DNA from: an uncultured Granulosicoccaceae bacterium | Lineage (GTDB): Bacteria; Pseudomonadota; Gammaproteobacteria; Granulosicoccales; Granulosicoccaceae | DNA: 64,000 nt | Assembly: GCA_937922675.1 (NCBI GenBank) | Contig: CALAJN010000009.1 | Span: 62,001 to 126,000 of the forward strand | Reading direction: 5' to 3' | Shown here: piece after piece, positions 35,253 through 54,835 of the stretch | Layout of the letters: every line of letters starts with the position of its first letter | Numbering within the stretch: position 1 is the stretch's first letter | Made by a program: the position numbers and the translations under genes | Notes under the pieces: model-generated | The model's database searches: none | The model's input: only the letters and a program-made list of their open reading frames with translations | Told to the model about the DNA's origin: nothing

Positions 35253-36416
35253 CTACTCGACGATAGAGAATTCGACGCGTCGATTTTGAGCACGGCCTTC
35301 ACGAGTTGCATTGCTCGTCATCGGCTGAGATTCTCCAAACGCGCGTGGCTTGAGTCGTGTTGCCGCCACATTTCGAGTGACAAGGTAACGCGCTACGGAG
35401 ATGGCCCGTTGACGCGACAACTCCAGGTTAGATCGAGCATCACCGCTGTTGTCGGTGTGTGCATCGATTCTGACGCTGATATCCGGATAGTCGCCCAGAA
35501 CTGAAGCAACATTGTCGAGTACTCCTTGAGCACCGGCGGTCAGTTGCGCACTGCCCGATTCAAAGTTGACACCTGCGATCACACCACCGAAGACATCACA
35601 TCCTGTGTCATCCACAGGAATACCCGGGCCCGTGTCCAAACATTGATCAACCGTATCGAATACGCCGTCACTGTCTCCGTCCAGCGGTGCTGAAGCCGGT
35701 TCAGGCTTCACTGGTGCTGCCTCAACCTTGGGAGCCTTGGGCTCTTCCATGACTTTCTCAACCGGCTTTTCCACTCGCTTTTCAACCGGCTTTCGCGCCG
35801 TCACAGGTGAGTGATCTACGTCGCCGAAGCGATAGACAAGGCCCAACTGCGCGTAGCGCGCATCAGTATCGTGGCCGACGATTTCTCCACGCAAGCCCAG
35901 GCCATTGCGAAAGCCGTATTCAAGACCCAGACCTGCGAGCAGATGTACGTCGTTTACCTGTTCAAACTCTACCTCTGAATCATTATCCAGAGTGCCAGCA
36001 CCCAGCCGACCAAACACGGAAAAACCTTCGCGACGCGAGCGCTTGTCCCGATTGTTCAATCCGTAAAGCAGCGCACTCACGCTGTAGGTCAGGTAGTCCA
36101 GATCTTCGTTCTCAGCCCCTGCTACAGCGAGTTCAGCAGCACCAAGTGATGCAGCCGTACCTTCAATCGAAAACCGGTTGCTGATGTCATAACCGATCGC
36201 AAGGCTGCCACCGGCGCTGATGTCTTCATCGACGGAAACAGTTTCCACATCGTCAGCATCAGGCTCGAGCTGACTGACAAGGACACCACCGCCGACGTAG
36301 AAACGACCGTCAAAGTCGTCTTTTTGATTTGCTGTCTTGGTAGATCCGCAGGCTGCGAGCAGAAGGCTGGCGCTGCATAGACCTGTTACTAGCGAGCTTT
36401 TATGTTTGATATTCAA
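35253..36416 (-). CDS. OmpA-family lipoprotein with N-terminal barrel and calcium-like linker
   Basis: A 387-residue lipoprotein (lipobox L-L-A-A-C, Cys at 23). Residues about 37-215 look like an OmpA-type eight-stranded barrel (R-F-Y-V-G-G-G-V-L at the start, G-L-V-Y-R-F-G at the end). A Pro/Glu/Lys/Val linker (V-E-K-P-V-E-K) follows, then D-G-D-S-D-G-V-F-D-T-V-D-Q-C-L-D-T, and a C-terminal OmpA/MotB peptidoglycan-binding domain (about 280-387: V-N-F-E-S-G-S, D-A-H-T-D-N-S-G, N-R-R-V-E-F). The start is TTG with an AAGGG element upstream. It is a paralogue of the next gene upstream. It would link outer membrane and cell wall. Confidence 0.87.
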   Translation of the reverse strand: MNIKHKSSLVTGLCSASLLLAACGSTKTANQKDDFDGRFYVGGGVLVSQLEPDADDVETVSVDEDISAGGSLAIGYDISNRFSIEGTAASLGAAELAVAGAENEDLDYLTYSVSALLYGLNNRDKRSRREGFSVFGRLGAGTLDNDSEVEFEQVNDVHLLAGLGLEYGFRNGLGLRGEIVGHDTDARYAQLGLVYRFGDVDHSPVTARKPVEKRVEKPVEKVMEEPKAPKVEAAPVKPEPASAPLDGDSDGVFDTVDQCLDTGPGIPVDDTGCDVFGGVIAGVNFESGSAQLTAGAQGVLDNVASVLGDYPDISVRIDAHTDNSGDARSNLELSRQRAISVARYLVTRNVAATRLKPRAFGESQPMTSNATREGRAQNRRVEFSIVE

Positions 36417-36590: not shown

Positions 36591-38609
36591 TCAACGGATC
36601 AGTCTGACTTCAACACGCCTGTTGCGAGCACGATCTGACTCGGTCATGTTCTGCACGAGCGGCAAACCGTCACCATACCCTTCCGCGCGAAGCCGCTCGA
36701 CAGCAATGCCTGCCTCAACCAATGCATCAACGACCCTCTGGGCACGCTGTTGAGACAACTTGAGATTCGCGTCCCTTTCACCGGTGTTGTCCGTGTGTGC
36801 CATAACGGCAATGTGCGCAGATGGGTGTCGGTTCATTGCTCGCCGGATGCGCTCAACCGCCGCTCTGCCGGACTCGCTGAGTTCATCCGAGCCTGAGGCA
36901 AAGCCAAGCCCATCGATAACCCCTGTAGCGCTGAAGCCTGCCAAAAACCCTTGCGCAGGCAACGTGGAGGGCCTGAGGCCATTGATCGGCGGTACGCCGC
37001 CAGCAGGCATTGCGCTGACAGCCGCACCAAGAGCTGGCGCATCTGACTGCGTATCTGCACTGGCATCTGCCACGTCGGTGTTGGACACAGGTTTAACGGC
37101 TTCGACAGGTGAGCTCTTCGCAGTCCCACTGCCAGACGCAATACCCAACTCAACATCAGAGTCCTGTTCAAGTGCATCCTGGGCTGTCTTGGACAATGGG
37201 TACTGCCAGACATTGCTGCGCGCCTGTTGCTCCTCTATCACGTCCTTGTCCAGATTAGCGAGTGTGACAAGTTGGATACGTCTATTGCGACTGCGCCCCT
37301 CCGGCGTGCGATTGCTCACCAGCGGTTGAGACTCACCCATACCGCGGCCCTGCAGCTGAATCTCAGGCACACCGTTGACACGCAGGTACCAGACAACGGC
37401 TTCGGCGCGTCGTGATGACAAACCTAGATTGTCATCTGCCGATCCTCGTGAATCAGTGTGGCCGCGGACCTCGATACGCACCTCGGGAAAAGCCTGCAGC
37501 TTGGCAACGATATGATCAAGTGCAGCGCGTGACCGTGCGTTCAGCTTGGTGGAGCCACGATCAAATACGACATCACCAAGTACTGCATCGAACAATCCGC
37601 ATCCCTTGTCGTCCACAGTGACACCACGCGCGGTGTCAAGACAGGCATCGTCGGCATCAACCACACTGTCTCCGTCACTATCGTTGGCATTGATGGAGGC
37701 AGCGGTGGCGACGCGCATCGTCGGTACATCCTCGGCTGCGGGCGTCAAGGTCGAGTCAACAACTGCCGCGTTTGTACGGCCCTGTTGGCTGCCAAAGCGC
37801 TTTGAAGGCACGACAGAGCGGCCGCCATCAACGACGTAGGTCTCGTCTGTCTCCAAGGCCGGTTTAGCCGAATCGGCAATCAGGTTGCCCAACTGCCTCG
37901 GTGAACGACCAAAACGATAAACAACGTTCAAGCCAAAAAATGTCGCCTCGCTGGAGAAACGTGTGATCTCGCCGCGCACACCTACACCATTATCAAACCC
38001 GTACTCCGCGCCAAGACCCAATACCGGACCGGTCGTCCCGCGATCCAGCGTGATTACTTGCGAGGCCTTGGATACCTGCGCAACACCGAAACGCCCATAC
38101 GCACTCCAGCCCTCACGCCGAGAGCGCAGCTGTACCCCATTAAGCCCGTACACCAGTGCGCTTAACGATACCGCTGAAAAAGAAACATCAGCAGGCGCGC
38201 CACTTAATCCGGCAGTTCCCAGGACGGAACTTTCTATTTCAACAGCCAGCAGGTTATGTATGTCGGCACCAATGCGCAGTTGCGACCCGTTGTCGCCGCC
38301 GTCATCAACCGAAAACACAGTGCCGCTGGTGTCAGGATCGAGGCTTGATGCGCCAAAGCCTACACCCGCATAGACGCGGCTGCGAAAGGAAGGATCATTA
38401 GCCGGAAGCTGAAACCCGGGTGCGGCAAGCGACACCGGGATATGGGAAAACAGACCCAGCGCCAACCCAAGAGAAGTGCCCAGAACCGGTAGACGAAACG
38501 TTTTCGTTGCGCCTCGTGGTGCCGCACTTGCTGCTACCACAACGGCGTCGCTACACGGGATGTTGACTGAATCCTTAGGCATTGACTTACTCGATGACTC
38601 TATACCCAT
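36591..38609 (-). CDS. OmpA-family barrel protein with two OmpA C-terminal domains
   Basis: A 672-residue protein. An N-terminal extension of about 45 residues precedes a signal-like segment ending S-L-A-A-P. A barrel domain (about 75-235, ending V-V-Y-R-F-G) is followed by a variable linker and D-S-D-G-D-S-V-V-D-A-D-D-A-C-L-D-T. Then come two OmpA-like domains: the first about 345-455 (V-V-F-D-R-G-S, R-G-H-T-D-S-R-G, N-R-R-I-Q-L) and the second about 560-672 (G-F-A-S-G-S, M-A-H-T-D-N-T-G, N-R-R-V-E-V-R). Both keep the Asp and Arg that bind diaminopimelate. The start could also be the internal ATG at 38582. It is a tandem paralogue of the 35253-36416 gene. Confidence 0.85.
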   Translation of the reverse strand: MGIESSSKSMPKDSVNIPCSDAVVVAASAAPRGATKTFRLPVLGTSLGLALGLFSHIPVSLAAPGFQLPANDPSFRSRVYAGVGFGASSLDPDTSGTVFSVDDGGDNGSQLRIGADIHNLLAVEIESSVLGTAGLSGAPADVSFSAVSLSALVYGLNGVQLRSRREGWSAYGRFGVAQVSKASQVITLDRGTTGPVLGLGAEYGFDNGVGVRGEITRFSSEATFFGLNVVYRFGRSPRQLGNLIADSAKPALETDETYVVDGGRSVVPSKRFGSQQGRTNAAVVDSTLTPAAEDVPTMRVATAASINANDSDGDSVVDADDACLDTARGVTVDDKGCGLFDAVLGDVVFDRGSTKLNARSRAALDHIVAKLQAFPEVRIEVRGHTDSRGSADDNLGLSSRRAEAVVWYLRVNGVPEIQLQGRGMGESQPLVSNRTPEGRSRNRRIQLVTLANLDKDVIEEQQARSNVWQYPLSKTAQDALEQDSDVELGIASGSGTAKSSPVEAVKPVSNTDVADASADTQSDAPALGAAVSAMPAGGVPPINGLRPSTLPAQGFLAGFSATGVIDGLGFASGSDELSESGRAAVERIRRAMNRHPSAHIAVMAHTDNTGERDANLKLSQQRAQRVVDALVEAGIAVERLRAEGYGDGLPLVQNMTESDRARNRRVEVRLIR

Positions 38610-46507: not shown

Positions 46508-47578
46508 CTACCGAACGGTAGCGTCCCTGTGATTATCAATGGCCGGTTCAGTCGCAGAGCCCTGCGGATTAACCAGACCGAAATGGCTGTAGGCATGATT
46601 TGTGGCCACCCGGCCGCGTGGCGTGCGCATGATCAGACCCTGTTGGATCAGGTAGGGCTCAACGACTTCCTCTAGCGTTCCTGTCTCCTCGGACAAGGCC
46701 GCACCGAGGTTATCAATCCCGACAGGCCCTCCGCCAAACTTCTCGATAACCGCCGAGAGCAGGCGCCTGTCCATGCTGTCGAGCCCAAGCCTGTCAACCT
46801 TGAGAAGATTCAGCGCCTCGTCGGCGACGGTGTCAGTGATCAATCCGTCGGCACGAATCTCGGCGTAGTCGCGCACACGCCGGAGCAGGCGATTGGCAAT
46901 CCGCGGCGTGCCACGCGCGCGCCGGGCGATCTGTAGCGCCCCACCGGTATCCATGCGAACCTCCAACAGTCGCGCCGAACGCTCGACAATGCCTGCCAGA
47001 TCTTCAACGGCATAGAAGTCAAGCCGTTGGACGATGCCAAAGCGATCGCGCAGCGGTGCTGTCAGAAGACCTGCGCGAGTTGTGGCGCCGATAAGGGTGA
47101 ACGGAGGCAAATCGATCTTGAAGGAGCGAGCCGTCGAGCCTTCGCCCGTCATGATGTCAATTTGGTAGTCCTCCATTGCAGGATAGAGAACCTCCTCGAC
47201 CAGAGCGCTCATCCGATGGATTTCATCGATAAACAGCACGTCATGGGACTCGAGACTGGTCAGGATCGCGGCAAGATCACCCGGGCGCTCCAGCACCGGA
47301 CCTGAGGTATGCACGATGCGAACATCGAGTTCGTTGGCGACAATATTGGCAAGCGTGGTCTTGCCAAGCCCCGGTGGGCCAAACACCAACAGATGATCGA
47401 GCGCCTCGGCGCGACGGCGAGCCGCCTCGATAAACAGGCCAAGTTGTTCGGTGACCGCAGGCTGGCCGTGGTAATCGGCAAGACGCTTGGGGCGCATGGC
47501 GCGCTCCTGCGCGTCTTCCGGGCGCGCACTGCCCGCAATGAGCCGATCCTCGGGTGCGCTAGCCTCGGAGGCAGACAT
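46508..47578 (-). CDS. ruvB: Holliday junction branch migration ATPase RuvB
   Basis: A 356-residue AAA+ motor. Walker A G-P-P-G-L-G-K-T at about residue 70, Walker B L-F-I-D-E-I-H-R near 121, sensor region [10 protein letters not shown], and a C-terminal winged helix with [10 protein letters not shown]-x-H-F-G. The C-terminal tail is about 10-20 residues longer than usual. RuvB drives branch migration with RuvA. It is the last ruv gene, 37 bases after ruvA; an A-rich run precedes its start. Confidence 0.97.
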
Positions 47579-47615
47579 GGGCTTCTCGTGTTGGTGAAAA
47601 AAAAGTGAGAACCGA

Positions 47616-48212
47616 TCACTTGGCAGCGAGTCGCAATGCTGCCCGTATCAGTTCCTCGACACTGTGCCCGTCGTCCGGCACCTTGTCGAGCAGACGCTTG
47701 ACCTCATTCCCCTTGTATCCCAATGCCGCTAGAGCCTCCTCTGCTTGAGCGCGACTGGAGCCCGATACCTGAGCAGAGCTTGATGCCCCAGGCAAGGAGC
47801 CCACATTCAGCTTGGCTACGCGGTCATGCATTTCCACCACCAGTCGCTCGGCAGTTTTCTTGCCGATGCCAGGCACTCTGACCAGCGTGTCGACGTCCTT
47901 GTTGTCGAGGCTGGCAAGAAAATCCTCAACACTCAAACCAGACAAGATAGATAATGCAACTTTGGCACCTACACCACTGACCTTGAGGAGCTCGCGAAAC
48001 AGGGTTCGCTCAAGTTTTGTACTGAAGCCGTACAGCAGCTGAGCATCTTCACGTACCAACAGATGGGTATGCAAGTTCACCTGCTCGCCTGCTTTTGGCA
48101 AGGTGTAGAAGGTGGACATCGGTGCGTCGATCTCATACCCGACACCGCCTGCATCCACCAACAGTGATGGCGGTGCCTTTTCAAGCAAGGTACCGCTGAT
48201 ACGTCCAATCAT
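47616..48212 (-). CDS. ruvA: Holliday junction DNA-binding subunit RuvA
   Basis: A 198-residue protein. N-terminal OB fold M-I-G-R-I-S-G-T-L, two helix-hairpin-helix motifs ([12 protein letters not shown] near 72, [12 protein letters not shown] near 107), and a C-terminal domain III that binds RuvB. The ATG at 48212 is chosen because the family starts M-I-G-R; the longer upstream frame overlaps ruvC. It follows ruvC by 8 bases. Confidence 0.97.
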
Positions 48213-48220
48213 TGTTTTGT

Positions 48221-48799
48221 CTATCGTCTCAAACCACGGCCGCGTGTCTTGCGACGCACGGGCAAACGAGACACTGTGCCACCTCTGGCATCGTTGGCAC
48301 CAGCGGCAGCGGCATAGCCACGCGAATGCGCATGACATAGCGCAATGGCCAGGCCATCCGCCGCATCATTCTGAAGCCTGCCGCTCAATTCGAGCATATG
48401 CTTGACCATGGTTTGCACGCGATCCTTGTCAGCGGATCCTGACCCTGTCACCACCTGCTTGACCGAACGGGCAGCGTATTCGGACACCTCAATGGAGTGC
48501 GTGACGACCGCCGTTATCGCAGCCCCACGGGCCTGACCGAGTTTCAAGGCTGACATCGCGTTGTTGGACAGAAACACCTGCTCTACCGCTGCTTCAACCG
48601 GATGCCACTCGTGTACCACTGCGGTGATGGCCGTGTGTATGAAGCCAAGCTTCTCGGCAAACGTGTTGCCAACCACGCGAATGTGGCCGTGCGCCAGATG
48701 AAAACTGCGCACACCGTCTGTCTCGATCACGCCATAGCCTGTGATGACCGAACCCGGATCAATGCCGATGACTCTTACCAGAGCGTTTGCCGTGCTCAT
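48221..48799 (-). CDS. ruvC: Holliday junction resolvase RuvC
   Basis: A 192-residue endonuclease that cuts Holliday junctions. The RNase H-like acidic residues are present: Asp in I-G-I-D-P-G-S near residue 14, Glu in A-V-E-Q-V-F, and the Asp residues in N-D-A-A-D-G-L-A-I-A. The ATG at 48799 is the family-like start; upstream residues of the longer frame do not match. The C-terminus is a short Arg/Lys-rich extension (R-L-P-V-R-R-K-T-R-G-R-G). It begins 13 bases after yebC. Confidence 0.95.
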   Translation of the reverse strand: MSTANALVRVIGIDPGSVITGYGVIETDGVRSFHLAHGHIRVVGNTFAEKLGFIHTAITAVVHEWHPVEAAVEQVFLSNNAMSALKLGQARGAAITAVVTHSIEVSEYAARSVKQVVTGSGSADKDRVQTMVKHMLELSGRLQNDAADGLAIALCHAHSRGYAAAAGANDARGGTVSRLPVRRKTRGRGLRR

Positions 48800-48812
48800 G
48801 TGGCCTGGCAAA

Positions 48813-49550
48813 TCACCCGTAGGCTTCAGCTGGAATCTCTGCGTTGGACCAGACGTTCTGTACGTCGTCGATGTCCTCCAGCGCGTCAATCAGTTTAAGC
48901 AGCTTGCTGCCTTGTTCACTATCAAGCTCAACCTCGGTCGATGCGCGCATGGTGACCTCGGAGTGCTCCGGCTCAAAGCCTGCAGCAGTCATGGCCTCCT
49001 TGACATCCACAAAATGCTCCTCGGTGGTCAGCACTTCGATAGACCCATCATCGCTTGTGACAACATCATCGGCTCCGGACTCCAGCGCTGCCTCCATGAT
49101 GCTGTCCTCATCACTGCCGGCGGCGTAAGCAAGGATGCCCTGTTTTTCAAACAGGTAGGCAACCGATCCCTGCGCCCCCATGTTGCCACCGTATTTACTG
49201 AAGGCATGCTTGACGTCGGAGACCGTACGGTTCTTGTTGTCGGTCATCGTATCGACCATGATCGCAACGCCGTTGACGCCGTAGCCTTCATAGCGATTTT
49301 CCTCATAGACGACATCGTCGAGCTCGCCTGCGCCCTTCTTGATCGCACGCTCGATCGTGTCCTTGGTCATGTTGCCGCCAAGGGCCTTGTCAACCGCCAA
49401 CCGCAGCCGAGGATTGGACGCGAGATCCGAGCCCCCCATCTTGGCCGCAACCGTGATCTCGCGGATAAATTTGGTGAACAGCTTGCCGCGTTTCGCGTCT
49501 TGCGCGTTCTTGCGGTGCTGGATGTTGGCCCATTTACTGTGACCGGCCAT
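48813..49550 (-). CDS. yebC: YebC/PmpR family protein (TACO1-like)
   Basis: A 245-residue protein with the canonical start [14 protein letters not shown] and the acidic C-terminal region. YebC proteins were described as transcription regulators and, more recently, as translation factors that relieve stalling at proline stretches. It lies directly upstream of ruvC, its normal neighbour. Confidence 0.96.
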
Positions 49551-50421: not shown

Positions 50422-50858
50422 ACGTAGCGCCTTACCGCCGCCTGGTTGGTAGGCGAGCCCAATGCGCTCAACGCGGGCTCACGCTCAAGCCAGGCGTAGC
50501 GCAGATGCTCTGTCGGATCGAGCCGCACTTCTACACGCTGTGCCAGCTCGAGGGTAAACACGTATTCGCGATTCGTTGTAACCTCGGGTGCGTAACGGGA
50601 ACGCCATGGCTCGCGAATCGCAAAGTCACTGTAGTGGTGACGATCGAGCGGTTCGGCGACGATGCCGGTCTCCTCCTGCAATTCACGTCGTGCTGCGGCA
50701 AACGGTGTCTCGCCCACCTCCAGGCCCCCGGTTACAGACTGCCAGAAGCCGACGGGGTTGACGCGCTCGAGCACGAGGACTTCTCCGGCGCGGGTCGAGA
50801 CCACGACCAGTATCGACTCTGGTCGCCGCCACACCGGTACCGCACCATTTTCACTCAC
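50418..50858 (-). CDS. nudB: Dihydroneopterin triphosphate diphosphatase
   Basis: A 146-residue Nudix hydrolase with a full Nudix box at about residues 44-66 (G-G-L-E-V-G-E-T ... R-E-L-Q-E-E-T-G-I). It matches NudB, which removes pyrophosphate from dihydroneopterin triphosphate in folate synthesis, in length, context and the R-R-P-E-S-I-L-V-V-V start. The start is GTG and overlaps the stop of the coiled-coil gene. In E. coli the order is aspS-nudB-yebC-ruvC; here two extra genes are interleaved. Confidence 0.9.
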   Translation of the reverse strand: MSENGAVPVWRRPESILVVVSTRAGEVLVLERVNPVGFWQSVTGGLEVGETPFAAARRELQEETGIVAEPLDRHHYSDFAIREPWRSRYAPEVTTNREYVFTLELAQRVEVRLDPTEHLRYAWLEREPALSALGSPTNQAAVRRYV

Positions 50859-52897
50859 GAATGAGCGGACTCCCGGTATTTTTTCTCGTACTCACGTCTG
50901 GCACCGCCAATCCAGTCATCACGCTCTATGCGGCCGGGGAAGGTATTTATTTCAGCGGCCACGCGGGAGATATCGTCCTGTGTAAAAGCGGTGATCTGTT
51001 GGAAACTCGTGATGCCCAGTTCGTTGAGGATCTGCTCCATCACCGGGCCTATGCCCTTGATCATCTTCAAATCATCACGTTCATGCGGCGGCGTGAACAA
51101 GGGGGCTCTGGTGCGTCGCTCTGACGATTGAGCTGCAGGCGCGGATGGTGTAGGCGTGGATGCCTCGACCTTTGGTGCAGACTTTGGTGCACGCTTTGGT
51201 GCAGGCTCTGGCTCGCGTGACGCTTCCACCAAGCGTTGCTCCAGCTCGACGATCCGCTGATTTCGACCCTGCAACTCGCTTTCAAGCTCAGCCAAACGCG
51301 CACTGTCGCTCTGTTCATGTGCGCCAGAGTCGTGCGCTTCAGAGTAAGGCTCATTTTGCTCGATGCTGGCAGCACGATTAGCTGCTGATGCACGTTCACT
51401 CTCCAGTGCTGCAAGCTCACTGCGCACCCGCCGCAATTCGAGATCGGTGCTACCCGCCTTGGCAGCCCTGGCCTCCGCCTCACTCAACGAGCTGCTCAGT
51501 TCGTTGACCCGGATACGAGTTGCCTCAAGTTCTGCCGACACACGATGCAGGCTGTCTGCGTCCTGTTGAACCGACTGAGCTGAACTTTCAAGTGTCACGA
51601 TGTGTTGCTCAAGCTCAGACACCCGTTGCTCTGCTTCCTGCACACGGCTCGAGGCGTCTGCCTCCGCTCTTCGCAACTGCTCTTCCAACTGTTCTTCACG
51701 GCGCTCATGCTCGCTACTCGCTGTAGCCAGTGCGATCTCGGCCTCTGCCAGCGCTTTCCTTGACTCGGTGCTGCGCACGGCCTCTTCTTTGAGCGTGAGC
51801 ATGGAAGCCTCATCGGCTCGCACGGATTCGATAAGCTCATCGCGCTCGCGCCGCGCTTGATCACGCTCTCGCTCAGCCGATGTCAACCGCGATTCCAGTC
51901 GTGCCTGCTGCGCCAGCTGTTGCTCTTGCTCTTGCTCCAGGCGCTCAAGCACCTCCAGATGTGCACCACGTAGCTGCTCTTCGATACGCCGGCGCTCGTC
52001 GAGTTCTTCGGTACGCACTAGCTCAGCCTGAGCCAGCTTGTCTTGCAAGTCGACGACGTGCGCTGCCTCATCGCGCAATGTGACGATGGTGGCATCGCGA
52101 TCGCGCACCGCCCCAATCTGCTGATCCCGTTCTCGCAGCGCCTGATCACGCTCCTTCTCGACAGTGCTCAGCCGCGCCTCCAGCGTGCGCCGCTGTGCAT
52201 GATGGTTTTGCCGCTCGTACTCAAGGTGCTCGGCAGTGATCAGGTTTTCGCCGGCTGCTGAGACTGTTTGCCCCGGCTGCACACCGGGCGCTTCAGTAGT
52301 ACGGCCACGCACAGACCCGGGCACAGCGTCGCCTCGCACTGCTGTCGCGATAACCTCGGCAGAACGTGCTGACTGTGCATTGACGGTATCGTCCAGACGG
52401 CTGACAGCTGGCGCTTGCTCGGCCTTGTCATCCAGCGGATGTGCCTCGCGCTGTTGCGTGCGCGCAACCTGATTGACCTCAACGATGCGTTTGAGCTCAT
52501 CACTGCCACGGGCCAGTTCGACATCAAGTAGTGAACGCGTTTGCCCGGTATTCGCCTTGGCCTCAGCGCCCGTCACTGCATTGGTGTGTGCGTCATCCGT
52601 CGCGACTTGACCTCGGTTGCCTTGATCATCGCCGAGGGCATTCAAGACAGCCGCGCCCTCAGTGCCAGACTCGGACCTTATAGCCGCAGCAAGACGGGGC
52701 GCATGCAGCTCGCCAGCGGCATGCTCGCGTTGCGCGATAGCCGCCCCGGATTCATGCTCCTCGTGAACGCGACGGCTCTCATCGAGCTCCTCATCGAGCT
52801 CTCTGTTAGACGGCCGACGCTTGCCCAACCAGAGGCCAAGCCAGCCAACCAGAAGCAGCGCGAGGAATACAAGCACCTGTGAGAGTGTCATATCCAT
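50855..52897 (-). CDS. Membrane-anchored coiled-coil protein with C-terminal helix-hairpin-helix domain
   Basis: A 680-residue protein. Residues about 5-22 are one transmembrane helix; about 25-580 are Glu/Arg/Gln/Ala-rich and predicted by eye to be largely coiled coil with heptad-like spacing; about 585-610 is a Pro/Ala/Lys linker. The last about 65 residues hold a helix-hairpin-helix-like domain: L-K-M-I-K-G-I-G-P-V-M-E-Q-I-L-N-E-L-G-I, then F-P-G-R-I-E-R-D-D-W. This C-terminal domain occurs in various proteins with NADH dehydrogenase or ribosomal neighbours and can bind DNA or protein. The ATG at 52897 has GGAG 7 bases upstream; the frame opens at 52924. It lies inside the aspS-nudB block. 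Function unknown. Confidence 0.8.
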   Translation of the reverse strand: MDMTLSQVLVFLALLLVGWLGLWLGKRRPSNRELDEELDESRRVHEEHESGAAIAQREHAAGELHAPRLAAAIRSESGTEGAAVLNALGDDQGNRGQVATDDAHTNAVTGAEAKANTGQTRSLLDVELARGSDELKRIVEVNQVARTQQREAHPLDDKAEQAPAVSRLDDTVNAQSARSAEVIATAVRGDAVPGSVRGRTTEAPGVQPGQTVSAAGENLITAEHLEYERQNHHAQRRTLEARLSTVEKERDQALRERDQQIGAVRDRDATIVTLRDEAAHVVDLQDKLAQAELVRTEELDERRRIEEQLRGAHLEVLERLEQEQEQQLAQQARLESRLTSAERERDQARRERDELIESVRADEASMLTLKEEAVRSTESRKALAEAEIALATASSEHERREEQLEEQLRRAEADASSRVQEAEQRVSELEQHIVTLESSAQSVQQDADSLHRVSAELEATRIRVNELSSSLSEAEARAAKAGSTDLELRRVRSELAALESERASAANRAASIEQNEPYSEAHDSGAHEQSDSARLAELESELQGRNQRIVELEQRLVEASREPEPAPKRAPKSAPKVEASTPTPSAPAAQSSERRTRAPLFTPPHERDDLKMIKGIGPVMEQILNELGITSFQQITAFTQDDISRVAAEINTFPGRIERDDWIGGARREYEKKYRESAHS

Positions 52898-52996
52898 ACC
52901 CGGTCTCCAGTGACAAGGAATCACAGCCGTGACCCCAGAGACTAACGGGTATATGTGTTTTCAAGGGTTTTAACAAGTAATAGACACAGTTTGTCA

Positions 52997-53014
52997 CCCT
53001 GAGAATTGTCAGGG
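52997..53014. terminator. Short hairpin between aspS and the coiled-coil gene
   Basis: CCCTGA-GAATTG-TCAGGG is a perfect 6-bp inverted repeat, 28 bases after the aspS stop. No T run follows on the minus strand, so it is at best a weak or factor-dependent terminator. Confidence 0.35.
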
Positions 53015-53041
53015 ATGTGCCTACCACATGAACGTCTGTGC

Positions 53042-54835
53042 TCAGCTCGATGTTGTTGGTTTTGCCCGAACGCGCAAGGACAGCTCCTTGAGCTGACGCT
53101 CGGAGACATTGCTCGGAGCGCTGGTCAGCAGACAACTGGCGCTTTGGGTCTTGGGAAAAGCCATGACATCCCGAATGCTGTCAGCGCCTGTCATCAGCAT
53201 GACCAATCGATCCAGCCCAAAGGCAATACCGCCATGAGGCGGTGCTCCGTACTTCAAGGCATCGAGCAGAAAGCCGAACTTGTCACGCGCCTCCTGCTCG
53301 CCGATGCCAAGCACATCCAGGGCTTTTTGCTGCATGTCGCTGGAGTGAATACGAATCGAACCACCGCCGACCTCGGTGCCATTGAGTACCATATCGTAGG
53401 CACGCGACAAGACAGCCCCCGGGTCTCTGTCAAGCTGTGCTGTCCACTCGTCGATGTCGGTCGCAACAGGAGCTGTGAAGGGGTGATGAAGTGCCTGCCA
53501 ACGATCTTCACGCTCGTCATGTTCAAACATGGGGAAGTCCACAACCCAAAGTGGACGCCAGCCTTCAGCGACGAGCCCCAGATCCTCACCCACCTTGCAA
53601 CGCAGGGCGCCGAGCGCGGCTTCAACCACGCCTGCCTTGTCGGCCCCGAAGAAGACGAGATCCCCATCCTCGGCACCGACACGCTGCATGATCGCGTCTA
53701 GCACATCGGCAGGGAAGAACTTGACGATCGGTGACTGCAGACCATCAACACCCTTGGTCAGTTCATTGACCTTGATGTAGGCGAGACCCTTGGCCCCGTA
53801 GCGACCCACAAACTCGGTGTAGACATCGATCTCCTTGCGCGAGAGCTTGCCACCGCCGGGGACGCGCAACGCTGCGACTCGACCTTTGGGGTCTTTGGCA
53901 GGTGCGGCAAACACCTTGAAATCCACGCTTTCGCACACGTCGGCCACTTCGACCAGCTCCAGCGGAATCCGCAGATCAGGCTTGTCAGAGCCATAGCGCA
54001 GCATCGCCTCGGCGTAGCTCATGCGCGGGAAGGAGGCGTCAAGATCCACATCCAGCGCGTTCTTGAACAGCGTGCGCACGATGCCTTCCATGAAATCGGT
54101 AATGGTGTTTTCATCGACAAAGCTCATCTCGATATCGAGTTGGCTGAACTCCGGCTGCCGATCGGCGCGCAGATCCTCATCACGAAAACAGCGAGCCACC
54201 TGATAGTAGCGGTCGATACCACCCATCATCAGCAATTGCTTGAACAGCTGCGGCGACTGCGGTAGCGCGAAGAAGTCACCCGGATGTGTCCGGCTGGGCA
54301 CTAGATAGTCACGTGCACCTTCGGGGGTGGCACGGGTCAACATAGGGGTCTCCACTTCGATGAAGCCCTCGGCTTCGAGCGCATCACGCAGCGACCGAAT
54401 CACCCGCGCGCGCAGGCGCAGGCGCTCCTGCATCTCGGGCCTTCGCAGATCGACGTAGCGATACCGCAGCCGATTCTCCTCGGAGACATTTTCGTCATCA
54501 AGCTGAAATGGCGGAGTCTCACTGCGATTGAGGATCTCGAGCTCGTGCCCGAGCACCTCGACAGCACCTGTTGGCAGATCCGGGTTGACCGTGCCCTCGG
54601 GACGATCTCGCACCACACCCTTGATGCGCAGCACAAACTCGTTACGCACCTGCTCTGCCAGTGCAAAGGTCTCGGCCCGATCCGGGTCGAACACGATCTG
54701 CACGAGCCCCGTGTGATCGCGGAGATCAATGAAGATCACCCCGCCGTGGTCACGGCGACGATGAACCCAGCCACAGAATGTGACCGATTCGCCAAGGTGG
54801 TCGGTGTTGACCGCCCCACAGGGGTGAGAACGCAT
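53042..54835 (-). CDS. aspS: Aspartyl-tRNA synthetase
   Basis: A 597-residue class II synthetase. N-terminal anticodon-binding OB domain ([19 protein letters not shown]), motif 1 around E-V-E-T-P-M-L-T, motif 2 [18 protein letters not shown] insertion domain, and motif 3 G-I-A-F-G-L-D-R-L. The ATG at 54835 matches the family start (M-R-S-H-P-C-G); the frame stays open far upstream, overlapping the divergent adenosine kinase gene, and that part is rejected. Bacterial-type enzyme; no Gln/Asn extension. Confidence 0.97.

Follow-up and report, generated by a model that had tools for sequence, protein, structure and literature searches.

A membrane-anchored coiled-coil protein with a PhaH-type helix-hairpin-helix domain as a candidate nucleoid tether in Granulosicoccaceae

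We describe P0001, a protein of 680 residues encoded in a 64,000-nucleotide stretch of DNA from an uncultured Granulosicoccaceae bacterium (contig CALAJN010000009.1 of assembly GCA_937922675.1, positions 62,001 to 126,000; hereafter the window), and propose, with confidence that is evenly poised, that it acts as a membrane-anchored cytoplasmic tether that keeps the nucleoid, or complexes attached to DNA, close to the membrane. DNA is the partner we favour because the C-terminal helix-hairpin-helix (HhH) domain of P0001 is homologous to the C-terminus of PhaH, a reported DNA binder. The original prediction had likewise suggested a tether of DNA or nucleoid; its architectural basis stands and is now joined by the homology to PhaH, while the hint it took from the neighbouring genes does not survive. 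P0001 is a well-formed example of a widespread class of proteins that consist of a transmembrane (TM) helix, a rod and a C-terminal HhH domain (TM-rod-HhH proteins). The spread of this architecture, which the original prediction had proposed as a check, extends to several phyla, and a search of an open-licence library found no described function for the class.

The predicted architecture agrees with the earlier description of one TM helix, a coiled coil and a C-terminal HhH domain, with the coil running from about residue 225 onward (Table 1). A full-length AlphaFold2 model built from 7 sequences had a mean predicted local distance difference test score (pLDDT) of 65, and for this reason its secondary structure alone was used. 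In this model the rod is a single unbroken helix over residues 225-481, with ten-residue block means of pLDDT of 76-92 from 241 to 440 and of 59-72 at the ends, followed by helices 486-514 and 527-560; stretches of low confidence cover residues 80-116 and 145-220. Hydrophobic heptad periodicity was equalled by 1 of 1000 shuffles for residues 225-481, by 6 of 1000 for 225-560 and by 655 of 1000 for 28-224, which points to a predicted coiled coil that is more than chance and starts at about residue 225. Because the basic residues KRR (26-28) directly follow the membrane helix, the positive-inside rule would place the rest of P0001 in the cytoplasm. The linker that joins the rod to the HhH domain contains the patches PKRAPKSAPK and RRTR and has a net charge of +4 over residues 560-600, and the C-terminal 86 residues, when modelled alone, are all-helical with a pLDDT of 90.6 and a predicted template modelling score of 0.79. 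We discarded the idea that the linker of these proteins is in general basic and histone-like: P0001 and several long-coil relatives do have a basic one, but in 73 OmpA-paired proteins it is acidic on average, at -4.1.

In the tether that we propose, the N-terminal helix would fix P0001 in the inner membrane with the remainder in the cytoplasm, and the coiled coil would oligomerise to give a spacer or rod, whose length would be about 50 nm if residues 225-560 formed one straight coil. The HhH domain, of the PhaH kind, may bind DNA weakly and without sequence preference, and several copies of P0001 together could hold the nucleoid, or complexes bound to it, near the membrane. A similar outline of membrane contact, coiled coil and DNA-binding end is described for RocS of Streptococcus pneumoniae; RocS has the reversed order, with its DNA-binding end N-terminal, and an amphipathic helix instead of the membrane-spanning helix of P0001. 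Further sources were PMC12079452, PMC11500499 and PMC10434189.

The C-terminal domain, its carriers and its ligand

The C-terminus of P0001 contains a hairpin of the form DDL..I.G(I/V)GP..E..L and a GRI.RD.W motif, which mark the type of add-on domain found in PhaH, NuoE and ribosomal L21. Against Pfam HHH_5 the domain reaches 19.6 bits, below the gathering score of 27 bits, which the domains of some relatives do pass (38.3, 28.9, 34.4 and 36.4 bits). It also matches the C-termini of the NCBIfam models for NuoE (expectation value E 3e-19), L21 (1.7e-15), PhaH (8.5e-13) and S2 (3.5e-12), in every case under the whole-protein cut-off of the model. With the PhaH model, NF045508, P0001 aligns to positions 170-230 of 234 and scores 51.3 bits against a cut-off of 250; it is therefore not a PhaH equivalog. 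The same profile matched 2 of 14 control genomes, those of Caulobacter vibrioides and Methanocaldococcus jannaschii, and exceeded its cut-off in one, presumably that of Caulobacter. Weaker sequence matches were to models or chains of ribosomal S13 and archaeal L32e. We take COG3743, "H3TH", a name that appears in PMC8686332, to be the CDD name for this domain family; P0001 is without the nuclease part.

The homology to the C-terminal HhH domain of the Caulobacter phasin PhaH (NF045508) bears on the ligand. According to a 2025 review, the N-terminus of PhaH sits on polyhydroxybutyrate (PHB) granules, its HhH domain binds DNA nonspecifically, and granules are disorganised without phaH (PMC13052382). 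PhaH is a granule protein, whereas the N-terminal part of P0001 is a membrane helix and a coiled coil. In addition, a paper on polyhydroxyalkanoate (PHA) synthases mentions, as data not shown, that one PhaC2 contains COG3743 and that another gives a histone-H1-like hit (PMC8686332).

Among solved structures, the closest by sequence are a C-terminal extension of NuoE (9wqv, 6.3e-13) and protein-O of the reaction centre-light-harvesting 1 (RC-LH1) complex of Dinoroseobacter (8yy9, 6.4e-11), both with the same C-terminal domain as P0001, followed by chains of the DNA polymerase IV type at E of about 5e-4 or weaker. Protein-O also has a membrane part and a linker, but its membrane part has two helices, is bound to RC-LH1 and is not followed by a coiled coil, unlike P0001; in its map, residues 8-59 alone were traced. 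By structure alignment the domain matched N-terminal domains of RadA (best Z 7.3), Hel308 (5.8) and DNA polymerase iota (up to 5.7). All fold matches lie below Z 8, those cited here spanning Z 5 to 7.3, and Foldseek gave no match at E 0.001 or better (best E 0.34); SAM domains were also among the fold matches. The modelled domain is predicted to have a fold of the HhH type, with the second hairpin of the RadA/Rad51 N-terminal and NusA C-terminal domains, to which it aligns at Z of about 5 to 7.3, replaced, as we read the sequence, by an FPGRIERDxW motif. HhH-type folds comprise DNA binders as well as protein binders, and the C-terminal repeats of NusA are protein binders.

The domain was present in 37 of 57 relatives, namely in all 36 genomes of the family, that of the window included, and in 1 of 21 others. 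Across the phylum of the window, Pseudomonadota, it was found in 85 of 299 genomes (the window's own, three others of the same class and of one genus, and the rest from other classes), and it occurs in 12 of 118 genomes of the phylum of an Aquimarina genome (G352) and in 7 of 149 of that of an Acidimicrobiales genome (G353), with the centre genome counted in both. The genome of the window has three carriers: P0001, a TM-HhH protein of 448 residues, and a fusion of the PntA/AlaDh type. The latter (L051:8110-9738) is a transhydrogenase alpha/alanine dehydrogenase-type protein with AlaDh_PNT domains and a divergent HhH copy at its end.

Carriers in Pseudomonadota were sampled at 40 loci hand-chosen among the matches listed, which held 47 open reading frames (ORFs) with the domain. 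Pfam assigned 13 of these to NuoE-type thioredoxin-like ferredoxins, 9 to L21, 4 to S2 and 2 to LivG-like ABC (ATP-binding cassette) ATPases. In Bacteroidota the domain ends ribosomal L27, L17 and S1 and an NrfD-type membrane subunit, as found with Pfam in L354, L345, L343 and L340 and by sequence likeness in L356, L349 and L359; in an Actinomycetota genome it forms the C-terminus of an ATP synthase gamma subunit (AtpG; L362:403-1725). A PHB depolymerase carries it as well, and so does a phasin-like protein that matches TIGR01837 at E 1.3e-18 with 67 bits, under the cut-off of 94.7. Some proteins contain several copies: L21-like proteins of Granulosicoccaceae relatives, their N-terminal part named by sequence likeness, have two in tandem (L085, L086, L087, L088), and L094 and L135 each have three within one TM protein.

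Several observations weigh against a DNA tether. NusA C-terminal repeats align to the domain about as well as RadA does (4mtn, Z 7.3; 1wcn, Z 5.9). A classical DNA-binding hairpin has GhG followed by K, R or T and a small residue, as in GIGKKTA of the RuvA protein encoded in the window, and the hairpin of P0001, GIGPVME, does not fit this pattern. Over 211 instances of the domain, lysine after GhG occurs in 1% at the first position and 18% at the second, and glutamate stands in 92% where the classical motif has alanine; a set of D-D, E, R, R and W is conserved, which in P0001 corresponds to D608, D609, E621, R656, R659 and W662. The core of the P0001 domain has a net charge of -4, with class means between -2.3 and +0.4; we set charge aside as an argument in either direction, as the HhH of RuvA, taken as a control, reaches only +1. 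The domain is fused to proteins of ribosomes, respiration, transport and granules, and the 15 Pfam families found on the 47 Pseudomonadota ORFs include no DNA-processing family besides the HhH-motif models. At the level of the gene, P0001 has aspS upstream in place of an OmpA neighbour, and since the site between aspS and nudB is filled in only 2 of 20 members of the genus, its function there would be dispensable or covered by another paralogue.

These observations lend themselves to the main alternative, which we regard as a possibility but a doubtful one: that the HhH domain serves protein docking or self-association, in the manner of NusA C-terminal repeats or SAM domains, and that P0001 gathers at the membrane cytoplasmic assemblies that bear the same domain, among them ribosomes and transhydrogenase. 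Most partners belong to large assemblies (NuoE-type, L21, S2, ABC ATPase, L27, L17, S1, NrfD-type, AtpG and PntA/AlaDh-type proteins), the residues of classical DNA contacts are lost, D-D, E, R, R and W are conserved, and both NusA repeats and SAM domains appear among the fold matches. However, the conserved residues may be structural, self-association is putative, and PhaH, the sole member of the family found with a reported ligand, is reported to bind DNA (PMC13052382). The frequency of ribosomal proteins among the carriers, together with the weak matches to S13 and archaeal L32e, would also suit a domain that binds RNA or ribosomes, by which P0001 would keep ribosomes or mRNA near the membrane; the carriers in complex I, ATP synthase, NrfD-type complexes and PHA granules fit this idea poorly, and we consider it improbable. 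A tether to the nucleoid, or to complexes bound to DNA, is the reading that we carry forward.

Pairing with OmpA-family genes

Many genes for TM-rod-HhH proteins follow a gene of the OmpA family, whose product would grip peptidoglycan. An OmpA-domain ORF lay directly upstream on the same strand at 56 of the 80 best-scoring loci; 4 loci were at a contig edge and in 20 the gene was not adjacent, giving 56 of 76 evaluable. When 14 records of Granulosicoccaceae or Granulosicoccus are left aside, the pairing among these best 80 loci amounts to 52 of 63 evaluable. By their titles, the records belong to Bacteroidota, Acidimicrobiia, Nitrospira, Bryobacterales, Alphaproteobacteria and one Oceanobacillus, a label that we doubt. 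Pfam OmpA matched all 56 upstream ORFs, and one from the genome of the window, with E of 0.01 or better, and BON was found in 12 of these 57. In 53 of the 56 OmpA ORFs the first 120 residues include a 19-residue hydrophobic segment (mean at least 1.2), a putative membrane anchor or signal peptide, and 2 of the other 3 ORFs are truncated at a contig end. With the 20 OmpA matches in the 3.63 Mb of the window's genome as a yardstick, chance alone should produce such adjacency at a rate on the order of 1% or lower.

The pairing has exceptions and becomes weaker outside the best matches. In the wider Pseudomonadota sample of 40 loci, an adjacent OmpA gene was present for 3 of 11 TM-HhH genes, a number from which the protein-O-like L297, L300 and L314, which lie beside nuoE, and L323, so judged by its sequence, are excluded. 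An earlier sample of 19 loci, chiefly top matches, gave 5 of 5 with the protein-O-like L216 left out. Bacteroidota gave 10 of 12, or 9 of 11 when the centre genome, itself chosen for carrying the gene, is not counted. Among the 7 positive genomes of Actinomycetota, the pairing was seen in L367 and in the centre genome (L112), while for others the stretch was too short to tell.

P0001 itself shares the TM helix, rod and C-terminal HhH domain of the paired proteins and is without their upstream OmpA gene. Its paralogue in the same genome (L050:8871-10217) does follow a BON-OmpA gene, in which the BON match (E 0.001) is below its cut-off. This pair belongs to a row of genes for BON-OmpA, TM-HhH, alpha/beta hydrolase, ABC ATPase and ABC-2 permease proteins (L050:8124-13839) that recurs in several relatives. 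Elsewhere a weakly matching HhH protein of 268-286 residues with a membrane helix is encoded on the far side of the OmpA gene, resulting in an HhH-OmpA-HhH triplet (L047:7404-8264, L109:5272-6087, L119:2263-3069). The window also encodes, at 36591-38609 on the minus strand, a protein of 672 residues with two OmpA domains, adjoining another OmpA protein at 35253-36416. In the open-licence library we found no paper on the pair of OmpA and TM-HhH genes; one paper names both, in a table of separate genes.

The gene and the aspS-nudB site

The ORF coordinates bear out the four-base overlap with nudB that had been read from the sequence, and the position beside aspS, nudB, yebC and the ruv genes is likewise confirmed (Table 1). 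The start codon of the P0001 gene lies 144 nucleotides from aspS. aspS, nudB (PRK09438), yebC, ruvC (TIGR00228), ruvA and ruvB all score above the cut-offs of their NCBIfam models; the block also contains an ORF of 211 residues, read as a hydrolase, with no NCBIfam match at 1e-10. A scan of 50700-53200 found no sigma-70-like promoter and was uninformative.

Table 1. Features of the P0001 locus, in window positions
Feature	Position	Strand	Remarks
P0001 gene, TM-coiled-coil-HhH protein, 680 residues	50855..52897	-	ATG at 52897, stop ends at 50855
Overlap with nudB start, 4 nt	50855..50858	-	nudB start at 50858
nudB (dihydroneopterin triphosphate diphosphatase), downstream of P0001	50418..50858	-	NCBIfam match
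aspS, upstream of P0001	53042..54868	-	start codon picked inside a longer ORF; NCBIfam match
yebC, ruvC, ruvA, ruvB block	46508..49550	-	context only, no tie to P0001 function
N-terminal membrane helix, residues 5-25	52823..52885	-	predicted from AlphaFold2 model and sequence
Residues 29-224	52226..52813	-	low-confidence helices 31-74 and 113-147, otherwise unstructured, no heptad periodicity
Coiled-coil rod, residues 225-560	51218..52225	-	predicted from AlphaFold2 model and heptad periodicity
Disordered Pro/Ala linker, residues 561-605	51083..51217	-	mostly pLDDT <50
HhH domain, residues about 606-670	50888..51082	-	hairpin G615-I-G617-P-V-M-E621; motif R656-I-E-R659-D-D-W662

The placement of the gene at this site is incidental. 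A nudB match was present in 24 of 39 genomes, 20 of them of the same genus and 4 of other families, and a P0001-type gene lies between aspS and nudB in only two of the 20, that of the window (G000) and G003; in the remaining 18, and in the 4 from other families, aspS directly precedes nudB, with a largest gap of 472 nucleotides (L074). We therefore dropped the operon logic of the original prediction, which had taken the setting among genes for tRNA charging and recombination as a clue to function.

The protein of G003 matches P0001 at its N-terminus (57% identity over 21 residues) and at its HhH end (66-72%, with 72% over query residues 3-77), and the whole alignment is 35% identical over 388 residues; the better-kept HhH end is in keeping with a functional tip on a spacer. 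In five relatives (G013, G015, G017, G020, G022) a long-coil HhH gene, with a product of 528 to 1675 residues, follows a trypsin/PDZ gene and a gene for a flavin adenine dinucleotide (FAD) monooxygenase, Pfam names that come from one of the five. Coil length varies among relatives; the coil of L039 has a tandem repeat of 102 bp, or 34 residues, and none was seen in that of L041. Both G000 and G003 have the monooxygenase gene with no HhH gene following it, and because the site is empty in both, relocation of the P0001 gene from the monooxygenase locus is likely. It is not proven, since a domain tree of 81 columns places the window protein beside L105, an OmpA-paired protein from another gammaproteobacterial metagenome-assembled genome: P0001, the G003 protein and L105 fall together (87/83), apart from 4 of the 5 monooxygenase-locus proteins (85/81).

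It could also be argued that P0001 plays no strong part and is a drifting accessory copy, a paralogue that was relocated or transferred here and has persisted by chance. The occupancy of the aspS-nudB site in 2 of 20 genus genomes, the fast divergence of the coil and a post-monooxygenase site filled in five relatives and empty in G000 and G003 are in line with this, but the ORF is intact and both its HhH end and its N-terminus are matched in G003, and we hold drift to be very improbable.

At the monooxygenase locus of G015, G020, G022 and G017, the long-coil HhH gene has a giant TM-coil-OmpA gene a few genes away on its upstream side, truncated by a contig end in G017, and in G000 such a gene is found near the monooxygenase gene. 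The copy in the genome of the window (L258:2442-6467) encodes an OmpA-family protein of about 1340 residues with an N-terminal hydrophobic helix, a very long coiled-coil-like stretch and a MotB-like OmpA end. This end has a match of at least 59% identity in 27 of 36 family genomes, in open frames of up to 1759 residues. We rejected the giant gene as a partner of the long-coil HhH protein, as many of the 27 genomes gave no such protein in the searches with the domain.

Prospects for chromosome-envelope linkage

Beyond the single gene, it is conceivable, if rather speculative, that one nucleoid-docking tag is common to several phyla and sits on ribosomal, respiratory and granule proteins, that TM-rod-HhH proteins together with peptidoglycan-binding OmpA proteins form a linkage from cell wall to chromosome, and that P0001 is an unpaired, rod-extended version of it. 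This broader finding, a docking domain on many large assemblies along with the pair of TM-HhH and OmpA genes, is in our view worth more than P0001 alone. In our judgement this bears on the question of how a bacterium ties its chromosome to the envelope and where it places ribosomes, respiratory complexes and granules with respect to it. If one small domain does the docking, the question becomes testable by the removal of about 65 residues, and the pair of OmpA and TM-HhH proteins emerges as a concrete candidate for a link between wall and nucleoid in several phyla.

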